From Acidobacteriaceae bacterium (GTDB taxonomy: Bacteria; Acidobacteriota; Terriglobia; Terriglobales; Acidobacteriaceae), in the NCBI GenBank assembly GCA_003131585.1, contig PKVW01000021.1:55354-119353 (forward strand): a stretch of DNA of 64,000 nucleotides. The letters are read 5' to 3'. The translations under genes and the position numbers were made by a program. Positions 2,976-17,253 of the stretch are shown here, piece after piece. Under the pieces are notes generated by a model. It had not been told where the DNA came from, searched no databases, and saw nothing but the letters and a program-made list of their open reading frames with translations. Position 1 is the stretch's first letter. The number at the start of each line of letters is the position of its first letter.

Positions 2976-3043
2976 GATTTTGGGTGGTGCAGGATTTTGG
3001 GTAGTACATGATTCTGGGTGGCGCAGGATTTCGGGTGGCGCAG
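2976..3043. repeat. Tandem repeat, 4 x 17 bp (GATTYTGGGTGGYGCAG)
   Basis: Units at 2976, 2993, 3010, 3027 with 1-4 mismatches each. Confidence 0.85.
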
Positions 3044-3098
3044 CGCTTCCAGCGCTGCGATAACTGCCCGCCAATCCTGCGGGCTTTTAGCCCCCGAG
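3027..3098 (-). repeat. Class I dispersed palindromic element, copy 1
   Basis: On minus strand: GGGGCTAAAAGCCC - spacer - ATCGCAGCGCTGGAAGCGCTGCGCCACCCGAAAT. Confidence 0.8.
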
Positions 3099-10889: not shown

Positions 10890-12731
10890 TCAGGCGGTAG
10901 GGAGGGTGAAGAGAAAAGCGGAGCCGTGAGCCACATCGCTTTCGGCGCGGATGGAGCCGCCGTGGGCGAGCATGATGTGTTTGGCGATGGCGAGGCCGAG
11001 GCCGGTGCCTCCGGACTCGCGGGAGCGGGCTTTGTCGACGCGGTAGAAGCGTTCGAACAGGCGCGGGAGGTGCTCGGAGGCGATGCCAGCGCCGAAGTCC
11101 TGGACGAAGAATTCGACGGCGTGGGGAACCGCGCGGGCACCGAGCACGATTCGTCCGCCGGAAGGGCCGTACCTTGCACCGTACTTCAGGGCATTGTCGA
11201 TCAGGTTGGCAAAGACCTGGTGAATGGCTTCGCGATCCGCGAGGACCGGGGGGAGATTCTGGATCGGCAAATCGTCACTCGGCGCATCGGGGACCGAGGA
11301 ATCGTGGATTTGCAAATCTTGTATCCGCAGGTCTTGTATCCGCGAATCTTGTATCCGCAGATCAATGCCGTGATTGCGGGCGATTTCGCGGAAGCTCTCT
11401 TCGGCATCGCGAACAAGTTCGGCGGGCGGGACGGGCTCCATATCGAAACGAGTTTCGCCGGATTCGACGCGGGCTAAAGTGAGCAGATCTTCGGTGAGGC
11501 GGGACATGCGGGAGGAATTCTTGCGGATGATTTCCAGAAACTCGCGGGTGGGAGCTCCGTGTTCGGGAGTGCTGTCGAGCAAGGTTTCGGCATAGCCCTG
11601 AATCGAAGTGAGGGGCGTGCGCAGTTCGTGGGAAACGTTGGCGATGAAGTCGCGGCGGGTTTTTTCGACGCGCTCGGTTTCGGTAAGGTCGCGGAGCACG
11701 GCGACGGCACCTCCGCCGGGCAGCGGCGCGGCTGTCACGTCGAAAGCGCGACCGGGGACGATGGAAGTGGCGCGGGCGGTTTTGACTTCGCGGGCGGCGG
11801 TGGCTTCCTTGACCGTGGCGAGGAAGTCGGGGTCGCGGATGGTCTCGACGACGGGCTGGTGCAGGCGAGCGCCTTGCGGAACCAGGCGATCCATGGATTG
11901 ATTGGCCCACTGCACGAAGCCGTCGGCACTGACGGCGATAACGGCGTCCTGCATGCTGTTGAGCAGGGTTTCAAGCTGGCGCTGGCTGGAGCGGACGGCG
12001 GCGAAGCTTTGTTCGACGCGGCGGGCAGGCTGGTCATTGTCACCATCAATATCTTCACCATCAATATCAAGGGCGCCGGCGACGCGGCCAACGTCGTCCT
12101 GAGAAGGTTCGAGGATGCGGGCCTGAAGATCGCCGTCGGCGATGCGGGCGGCGACCTGGACGATGCGATCGAGGCGGCGAGCCGTCCAGTAGGCTGCGAT
12201 GGCAGCCATTACAAGGGCGAACAGAAACGCCAGGCCGGAAGCCAGCTCCAGCCTGCGGCGAAGCTGCGCGGAGACGGCTTCGACATCGGAGAGCGGATAG
12301 GCCAGGCGTACGGCTCCGCCGGCAATGGGAACCGCCACGTAAAGAAACGGAATGCCCGCGGCCGCGCTCGGACGCTGGTCCACGCCTACGCGCCCGGAGA
12401 GCGCGGCGGCGAACTCCTTGCGCTGGGGAACGTTTTCGATTGTGCCCAGGCTGGATTCGGAATCGGCCAGCACGTTGCCGGCGGGATCGATGATGGTGAC
12501 GCGAGCGCCGGCGGCTTGTCCTTCCTGGGCGGCGATATCGGCGAGAGAATGGATGCGGTCGGTTTCGACGCGGTGGGCGAGGAGCTGGGTCTTTTGGATG
12601 AGGTTGCGCTCAATTTCGGAGCGCAGCGAAGTTCGCCAGGCGCTCCCGAGCATGAGGTCGAACATTACTACGGCTGCAAGGATGACGACCAGAAAGGCCG
12701 CCAGCAGCTTAAGGAAAATCCCGTTTCTCAC
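10890..12731 (-). CDS. phoR: PhoR-like sensor histidine kinase (HAMP-PAS-HisKA-HATPase)
   Basis: 613 aa; RRDFIANVSHELRTPLTSIQGYAETLLD, NLIDNALKYG, GTGLGLAIAKHI; adjacent phoB. Confidence 0.9.
   Translation of the reverse strand: MRNGIFLKLLAAFLVVILAAVVMFDLMLGSAWRTSLRSEIERNLIQKTQLLAHRVETDRIHSLADIAAQEGQAAGARVTIIDPAGNVLADSESSLGTIENVPQRKEFAAALSGRVGVDQRPSAAAGIPFLYVAVPIAGGAVRLAYPLSDVEAVSAQLRRRLELASGLAFLFALVMAAIAAYWTARRLDRIVQVAARIADGDLQARILEPSQDDVGRVAGALDIDGEDIDGDNDQPARRVEQSFAAVRSSQRQLETLLNSMQDAVIAVSADGFVQWANQSMDRLVPQGARLHQPVVETIRDPDFLATVKEATAAREVKTARATSIVPGRAFDVTAAPLPGGGAVAVLRDLTETERVEKTRRDFIANVSHELRTPLTSIQGYAETLLDSTPEHGAPTREFLEIIRKNSSRMSRLTEDLLTLARVESGETRFDMEPVPPAELVRDAEESFREIARNHGIDLRIQDSRIQDLRIQDLQIHDSSVPDAPSDDLPIQNLPPVLADREAIHQVFANLIDNALKYGARYGPSGGRIVLGARAVPHAVEFFVQDFGAGIASEHLPRLFERFYRVDKARSRESGGTGLGLAIAKHIMLAHGGSIRAESDVAHGSAFLFTLPTA
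11311..11370. repeat. 15-bp tandem repeat inside phoR
   Basis: tgcaaatcttgtatc/cgcaggtcttgtatc/cgcgaatcttgtatc/cgcagatcaatgcc encoding RIQDS-RIQDL-RIQDL-QIHDS. Confidence 0.85.
12041..12070. repeat. 15-bp tandem duplication in the phoR linker
   Basis: caccatcaatatctt / caccatcaatatcaa, encoding LDIDG-EDIDG. Confidence 0.75.
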
Positions 12732-14147: not shown

Positions 14148-16334
14148 TCATCGGAGTACCGCAATGACAAGGTTTCCAGCACGGTCGAGGTGGAAGCGTT
14201 TGCCGGGCGGGATGACTGTGGTGGCGCTGTATTCGGTGACGATGGCGGGTCCGGAGTAAGTTGTGCCGGGGTTCAGGGCGTCGCGGGAGTAGATCGCGGT
14301 AGCGAGTTTCTTGCCGTCGAAGAAGACTGGGGCGTTGGGCGCGAAAAGCGATCCGAGCTTTGCTCGGCCTGGACGGCCGAGGGCGGCCGTCCCCACATGG
14401 GCTGTGCCCGCTTCACCAATCTTCTCCACATGTGCCGTAGTTGCTTTCAGTGGCGGCGATTTCACAACTGCGCGGAGGCGGACGGTTACTAGCTCTACTT
14501 CGCGCGTGGGATGGGCGTAGCCATAGCGACGCTGGTGTTCTTGTTGGAAATCGGCTAGCAGATTCCTGGTAAAGGGCAGGTTGAGTTCGTATCCCTGGCC
14601 TCGGTAGCGGATGTCGACGCTCGCTTGACAGTGCACTCTTCCCTGCCAGGCTTCCTGATGAAAATCTTTCGCGGCTTGCTTCCGCAGGGCAGAGAACTCA
14701 CGATCCAGTTGCGCGGCTGGAAGTTTGCCGGAGGCGTGCCACAGAATGGTGCGGGAGTAATCCTTGACCACGTCGCTGACCAGAACGCCGAGAGCGGAGA
14801 GCGCGCCGGGCAGGGCGGGCACGATCACGCGGGGGATGCTGAGGGCTTCGGCCAAGGCGCAGGCGTGGAGGCCTCCGGCGCCGCCGAAGGCGACCAGGGC
14901 GAAGTCGCGGGGATCGCGGCCGCGCTCGATGGAGACCACGCGAACGGCTTTCTCCATGGTGGCGTTCACCACGCGGACGACGCCGGCGGCGAAGCGATCG
15001 AGAGTGAGAGGATTTCCCTGAAGCTTGAGCCAATCGCGCGTGATGCGGCGGGTGCGGTCGACATCGAGAGTAAAGTCACCGCCGAGGAAGCGGGTAGACT
15101 GCAGGCGGCCGAGTAAGAGGTTGGCGTCAGTGACCGTGGGCTGCGTGCCCCGGCCGTAGCAGATGGGGCCGGGATCGGCGCCGGCGGATTCGGGACCGAC
15201 GCGGAGAACGCCGCCAGCGTCGAAGCGGGCGAGCGAGCCTCCGCCTGCGCCCACGGTGTGGATGTCGAGCATGGGGACGCCGATGGGGAGTCCGGCGACT
15301 TCGGCTTGGTTGGCGGTGGCGATGGCGCCTTCGACCAGAGAAACATCGGTGGAAGTGCCTCCCATGTCGAAGGCGATGATGCGGGGGAGGCCGCTGCGGC
15401 GGGCGCTGGCGGCGGCGCCGACTACGCCTCCGGCGGGACCGGAAAGAACGGCGCGGACCGGTTCACGGGCGGCGGCGGCCAGGGACGTGATACCGCCGCT
15501 GGATTGCATTACGAAGATTCGAGGGGCATTGGCGCGCTGAGGTCCCTCGGGAGCTAAAGCCCTGATCGAGTTGGACATCTTTTTCGCAGCGCTGAAGCGC
15601 CGCGCCACCCAAAAGCTTCCGGCTGCCGCACTGGTTGCTTCGTCCGCAGACAATTGCTGCGCCGAGCGCTGCTCTAGATTTTCCAGGTAGCGCTGCATGA
15701 CTGGCTGGAGGTAGGCGTTGATTACTACTGTGGATGTGCGTTCGTATTCGCGGAATTCGGGGAGGATTTTGTGAGAGATGGAGAGCGGGACGCCGAGGGG
15801 CTTTAGGACTTCGGCAATTTCTAACTCGGTTTTTGGATTCGCGAACGAGAAGAGCAACGAGATGGCGACGGACTCGGGGTGCTTCGCAGATACTTGGGAG
15901 AAGAGAGATTGCAAATCCGCGGGTGAAGGCGAGGTCAGGATTTCGCCCTCGCTGTCACTGCGTTCTGCGATGCCGAAGCGGAGATCGGCGGGGACGAGCG
16001 GTTCGACACGGTCGAAGAAGAAGTCGTAGAGCTTGGGGCGGGCCTGGCGGCCGATCTCGATGACGTCTTCAAAACCCGCAGTGGTGACCAGAGCGGTGCG
16101 CGCGCCTTTGCGTTCGAGCAGGGTGTTGGTGCCGACGGTGGTGCCGTGCAGGAGAATGAGTTCGCCTTCATGACTGATTTTGCGGAGGGCTTCGACGATG
16201 GCTTGGGAGGGATCGGCGGGAGTGGAGAAGACCTTCAACATGCGCAGGCGGCCAGCGTCCTCGATCCAGACACAATCGGTGAAGGTGCCGCCAGTGTCGA
16301 TGGCTACGCGGAGGGGTTGGGGGCGACGGGGCAT
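14148..16334 (-). CDS. hyuA: Hydantoinase/oxoprolinase (HyuA) family protein
   Basis: 728 aa; RVAIDTGGTFTDCVW, HGTTVGTNTLLERKGA, FDMGGTSTDVSLV, GGAGGLHACALAEALSI. Confidence 0.92.
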   Translation of the reverse strand: MPRRPQPLRVAIDTGGTFTDCVWIEDAGRLRMLKVFSTPADPSQAIVEALRKISHEGELILLHGTTVGTNTLLERKGARTALVTTAGFEDVIEIGRQARPKLYDFFFDRVEPLVPADLRFGIAERSDSEGEILTSPSPADLQSLFSQVSAKHPESVAISLLFSFANPKTELEIAEVLKPLGVPLSISHKILPEFREYERTSTVVINAYLQPVMQRYLENLEQRSAQQLSADEATSAAAGSFWVARRFSAAKKMSNSIRALAPEGPQRANAPRIFVMQSSGGITSLAAAAREPVRAVLSGPAGGVVGAAASARRSGLPRIIAFDMGGTSTDVSLVEGAIATANQAEVAGLPIGVPMLDIHTVGAGGGSLARFDAGGVLRVGPESAGADPGPICYGRGTQPTVTDANLLLGRLQSTRFLGGDFTLDVDRTRRITRDWLKLQGNPLTLDRFAAGVVRVVNATMEKAVRVVSIERGRDPRDFALVAFGGAGGLHACALAEALSIPRVIVPALPGALSALGVLVSDVVKDYSRTILWHASGKLPAAQLDREFSALRKQAAKDFHQEAWQGRVHCQASVDIRYRGQGYELNLPFTRNLLADFQQEHQRRYGYAHPTREVELVTVRLRAVVKSPPLKATTAHVEKIGEAGTAHVGTAALGRPGRAKLGSLFAPNAPVFFDGKKLATAIYSRDALNPGTTYSGPAIVTEYSATTVIPPGKRFHLDRAGNLVIAVLR
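14353..14400 (+). repeat. Class II palindromic element, copy 1 (inside hyuA)
   Basis: CCGAGCTTTGCTCGG-CCT-GGACGGCCGAGGGCGGCCGTCC-CCACATG. Confidence 0.85.
15549..15614 (+). repeat. Class I palindromic element, copy 2 (inside hyuA)
   Basis: GGGAGCTAAAGCCC - 23 nt - CGCAGCGCTGAAGCGCCGCGCCACCCAAAA. Confidence 0.85.
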
Positions 16335-16383
16335 GGAGTTGAATTCGAAAATTTTCAGGCTACTGCAAGCTCCAGGTAGCTCA

Positions 16384-16450
16384 GGGGCTGAAGCCCTCAG
16401 TCAGGGGTTGGCATTTATCGCAGCGCTGGAAGCGCTGCGCCACCCAAAAT
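16384..16450 (+). repeat. Class I palindromic element, copy 3 (hyuA-dinB intergenic)
   Basis: GGGGCTGAAGCCCTC - spacer - ATCGCAGCGCTGGAAGCGCTGCGCCACCCAAAAT. Confidence 0.85.
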
Positions 16451-16490
16451 CGGAGCGATTCAGCAGCTTGCTAGGGTAACATTTGCGGCT

Positions 16491-17096: not shown

Positions 17097-17107
17097 ATTG
17101 GGTACCT

Positions 17108-17171
17108 TGGAAGCTAAAGCCTCATCCATGGTGGAGCTTTTCGCAGCGCTAAAAGCGCCGCGCCACCCAAA
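17108..17171 (+). repeat. Class I palindromic element, copy 4 (dinB-sucA intergenic)
   Basis: GAAGCTAAAGCCTC - spacer - TCGCAGCGCTAAAAGCGCCGCGCCACCCAAA. Confidence 0.8.
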
Positions 17172-17207
17172 GGCATATGGGCAGGAGTGCCCGCGCCACA
17201 ACCTTAG

Positions 17208-17253
17208 CCGAGCTTCGCTCGGCGGACAGCCGGGGGCGGCTGTCCCCACATAT
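17208..17253 (+). repeat. Class II palindromic element, copy 2
   Basis: CCGAGCTTCGCTCGG-C-GGACAGCCGGGGGCGGCTGTCC-CCACATATG. Confidence 0.85.

Follow-up and report, generated by a model that had tools for sequence, protein, structure and literature searches.

A two-hairpin repeat in frame within hyuA and other conserved genes of an acidobacterium, and its association with RAYT/TIRYT-type transposases

The window analysed here, a 64,000-nucleotide stretch of an Acidobacteriaceae genome (contig PKVW01000021.1), contains four two-hairpin elements of class I, one of them within hyuA, and two copies of a second repeat family, one of which is also in frame in hyuA. The features are:

14148..16334, minus strand: hyuA (hydantoinase/caprolactamase-alpha-like), 728 aa, reading frame uninterrupted by either insert
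15547..15616, plus strand: class I two-hairpin element in hyuA, in frame and antisense to the gene, approximately residues 240-263
15549..15562, plus strand: left hairpin of the hyuA copy, GGGAGCTAAAGCCC
15585..15604, plus strand: right hairpin of the hyuA copy, short-loop form, CGCAGCGCTGAAGCGCCGCG
15605..15614, plus strand: conserved 3' tag of the hyuA copy, CCACCCAAAA
14353..14398, plus strand: in-frame repeat of the other family in hyuA, VGTAALGRPGRAKLGS on the minus strand, approximately residues 646-661
17208..17251, plus strand: intergenic copy of that second family, from its alignment with 14353-14398
3027..3097, minus strand: intergenic class I copy, 73.4 bits
16381..16451, plus strand: intergenic class I copy immediately upstream of hyuA, 85.5 bits
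17107..17174, plus strand: intergenic class I copy, 61.5 bits

The original prediction described a repeat of about 66 bp at 15549-15614, translated without a break in the hyuA frame and present at three non-coding sites of the window. At the sequence level this description holds throughout: the repeat is a full copy of the two-hairpin element (covariance model match 15547-15616, 72.8 bits, rank 21 of 129 matches), the 728-residue reading frame stays open, and the copies at 3027-3097 (minus), 16381-16451 (plus) and 17107-17174 (plus) all lie between genes. The peptide encoded across the element is SFWVARRFSAAKKMSNSIRALAPEGPQ, an in-frame addition of approximately 24 residues. The repeat at 14353-14398, in the C-terminal part of hyuA, is unrelated to class I and is found in many orthologues. 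A peptide similar to it is also present in PurL of this genome.

The element is about 70 bp long, and the class I consensus comprises AGGTACCTC, the left hairpin GGGGGCTAAAGCCC, approximately 20 nt, TTAT, the right hairpin CGCAGCGCTGGAAGCGCTGCG and the outer tag CCACCCAAAATC. The left hairpin is common to all classes and the right hairpin is class-specific: class II has the same left hairpin together with GGCACGGCTGAAGCCGTGCC and CTTCCC, and class III, when the other strand is read, is GTGGAAGAGCGGCGCTTTAGCGCCGC. Compensatory changes are evident at one left-hairpin pair (8 cells vs 2.6 in shuffles); the single hyuA copy folds no better than its shuffles (z -0.08). The GTAG tetranucleotide is absent from the element ends, which are AGGTACCTC and CCACCCAAAATC, as is the CGTC tag from the class I element, which is thus neither a GTAG nor a CGTC repeat.

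Degenerate patterns for the long and short right loops occur at 27 and 17 places, respectively, in the 3.93-Mb genome, for which the closest organism names are Candidatus Sulfotelmatobacter and Acidobacteriaceae; reversed-pattern controls occur at none (0 and 0), which puts the element far above chance. Genome-wide, a covariance model based on 25 copies finds 129 matches at E<=1, approximately 110 of these at E<=0.001, the weaker matches including the sister classes. The element is not confined to the hyuA locus, being present also in other genes and in dozens of intergenic places. Among copies scoring at least 30 bits 11/95 are coding, a strong deficit against a genome assumed to be 85% coding, and since so few are coding most insertions into genes have probably been purged; an insertion preference for intergenic DNA could add to this deficit. 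At E<=1e-9 copies are found in 41 of 43 genomes of the same genus vs 0 of 28 others, a comparison that may overlook divergent forms beyond the genus, the copies used to train the model having come from this genome.

PF01797 genes are frequent in the genus; for three clades of these transposases the flanking repeats belong to class I, class II and class III, respectively. The typical geometry is outward-facing, with the upstream copy on the opposite strand and the downstream copy on the same strand as the transposase gene. With the class I protein as a fresh query, 12 loci were recovered, in 12 genomes of relatives of which four had already been seen, and at all 12 class I copies lie on both sides of the Y1/HUH (RAYT-like) transposase gene, within 111 nt at 11. 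Flanking within 200 nt is seen for 15/15 transposases of clades I-III vs 0/37 others, five of the clade I-III loci having been picked for a nearby copy and three used as seeds; without loci so chosen or used the figures are 9/9 vs 0/37. The control loci have few copies apart from the HyuA inserts. The class I transposase carries the HUH motif HFH, plus YIRQNP, and the median copy number is 18 in genomes that encode it vs 7.5 in those that do not (p=0.008, in a test that ignores genome relatedness).

We consider the element to be a non-autonomous repeat of the RAYT/TIRYT type, of which in-frame insertions survive in tolerant loops (probability roughly 0.85). The Y1/HUH transposase, whose gene in relatives sits between two copies facing outward, would move the element as single-stranded DNA; copies would land everywhere, gene-breaking ones would be lost, and those landing in frame in a flexible loop would persist as neutral or near-neutral protein inserts. 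It is unlikely, given the clade-specific flanking and the mostly fixed outward geometry, that class I is moved by something else and that the flanking transposases are mere neighbours. Such a mover would nonetheless fit this genome (assembly 96% complete, 75 contigs), in which we found no class I transposase at >=59% identity, the nearest being 49% identical and class III-like, and no class I element beside its RAYT genes, so that the link is seen only in relatives; it would also fit the genomes that have many copies and lack the class I transposase.

Three further arrangements were seen in this genome. The product of the RAYT-like gene L035 (G000:C23) has PQGLKPVLLEGSNGAPEGAPFQN, a class II-like peptide, close to its C-terminus; another RAYT gene has on each side a palindrome of a different kind, CGCACCTTTCG-N7-CGAAAGGTGCG (L031 1278-1306 and 2227-2255); and an AAA-ATPase-like gene (G000:C28:166507-168837) lies between pairs of outward-facing element copies.

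Besides HyuA, class I has in-frame copies in HemB, TilS and TrmFO of this genome; class II has them in PurL (twice), HemD, MoaA, HpnE, a gamma-glutamyl-GABA-hydrolase-like protein and a Ycf48-like protein, the families being named by NCBIfam; GyrA of a relative carries class III. The inserts span conserved and likely essential enzymes, in which they lengthen surface loops by approximately 24 residues and leave the proteins unbroken. These coding calls rest on homology, because codon scores separated coding from non-coding sequence poorly, and several long ORFs over copies were rejected as coding, as the real start is downstream or there is no family match. Reading frames vary by gene, with HyuA and HemB sharing the same antisense frame and TilS and TrmFO using two sense frames. 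PDB homologues skip the inserts of HemB, PurL, MoaA and TrmFO, and the HemB insert of 24 aa compares with a short loop in two relatives. Comparison of filled and short-loop HemB sites gave no clear target site duplication; neither such a duplication nor a very recent filled/empty pair was found. A different repeat (NVVIPSGARDPG) occupies nearly the same HemB loop in the relative G020 (L265), and a class II-like insert, possibly coding, lies close to the open end of an agmatine-deiminase-like ORF (L235). Inserts of this kind split domain matches and can mislead annotation.

Alignment of HyuA orthologues, named beforehand as the test of whether the stretch is an insertion, reveals orthologues without it or with other inserts there. 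Among 77 orthologues the loop at the insert site can be as short as 7 aa or as long as 118 aa; most orthologues, including most outside the genus, have 7-27 aa, and the 118-aa extreme lies within it. Many Sulfotelmatobacter genomes have a long loop filled by class I, class III and other repeats, some genus members have several repeat units there, and some genomes of the same genus have a short loop. A solved PDB homologue skips residues 225-271, and AlphaFold predicts disorder at 238-267 (pLDDT <50) and in a second stretch, 631-663, which takes in the second repeat family. The HyuA tree has poor resolution within the genus and requires a minimum of 11 insert changes, with gain and loss indistinguishable and with L043 and L048 falling outside the insert class by the rule used. 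The HyuA loop has repeatedly been invaded by different repeat families.

This repeated refilling, sometimes by several units, together with the one common frame and orientation of the class I and class III inserts in HyuA, would be expected if the inserts were functional, selection keeping useful linkers or regulators and the HyuA loop being a domesticated landing site. We regard this as improbable, as genomes of the same genus have short loops, the inserts vary in family, length and sequence, disorder is predicted for the segment, and unrelated proteins also carry inserts. An assembly artefact or a decayed hyuA gene might be suspected in a fragmented assembly of 75 contigs, but is very improbable when inserts occupy the same loop in independent genomes and the 728-residue frame is unbroken and can be aligned along its length to orthologues. 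Although many genus orthologues have some longer loop, there is next to no chance that the coding copy is ancestral HyuA sequence, its likeness to the intergenic repeats being fortuitous or derived from HyuA, as the same DNA element is in HemB, TilS, TrmFO and dozens of intergenic places and most orthologues outside the genus have loops of 7-27 aa.

Insertion of RPEs into Rickettsia proteins has been reviewed (PMC10969869, PMC2229807), and the original prediction proposed an analogous protein-invading repeat in an acidobacterium. The analogy survives in the other in-frame copies in conserved genes; the element is, however, not simply RPE-like but a repeat flanking a RAYT/TIRYT-type transposase. 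It resembles RPEs in its in-frame insertion in unrelated conserved proteins, and differs in its length of about 70 bp vs approximately 100-150 bp (PMC10969869, PMC2229807), in having a candidate transposase and in lacking the CGTC tag, which a 2013 survey of GTAG and CGTC repeats (PMC3733652) reports for RPE sequences. That survey describes intragenic REPs, as well as families of TIR repeats that flank TIRYT genes ('TIRtrons'), including in Koribacter versatilis. Our element is like the TIR repeats in that, in Acidobacteria, its family includes the inverted repeats on either side of an IS200-like Y1 transposase gene, and in its two hairpins, some TIR repeats being double palindromic; unlike them, it reaches approximately 110 matches in a single genome, comes in three sister classes that share their left hairpin and has copies lying in frame within conserved genes, intragenic TIR repeats being unreported in the sections consulted (PMC3733652). 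Like the GTAG REPs/REPINs with their RAYTs it is a hairpin repeat with a candidate cognate transposase and some in-frame copies in conserved proteins, but it has no GTAG tag and is an asymmetric two-hairpin unit of approximately 70 nt (PMC3733652). The element behaves like an RPE and most likely belongs to the RAYT/TIRYT-associated repeats. REPs within genes were known before, and the acidobacterial element adds a variant with a candidate transposase; a limited literature search found no report of acidobacterial protein-invading repeats.

These data extend RPE-like protein invasion to presumably free-living soil bacteria, with a transposase that can be tested. The fate of random protein inserts is directly measurable here, dozens of related genomes having filled, differently filled or short loops. 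We raise only as a doubtful extension that transposase-driven insertion of short repeats may keep supplying the genus with new protein segments, several repeat families landing preferentially in HyuA-type loops, which may be selected as such sites. Elsewhere in the window, at 11302-11361, three tandem 15-nt units in a histidine-kinase-like ORF give RIQDLRIQDLQIHD-type peptide repeats.
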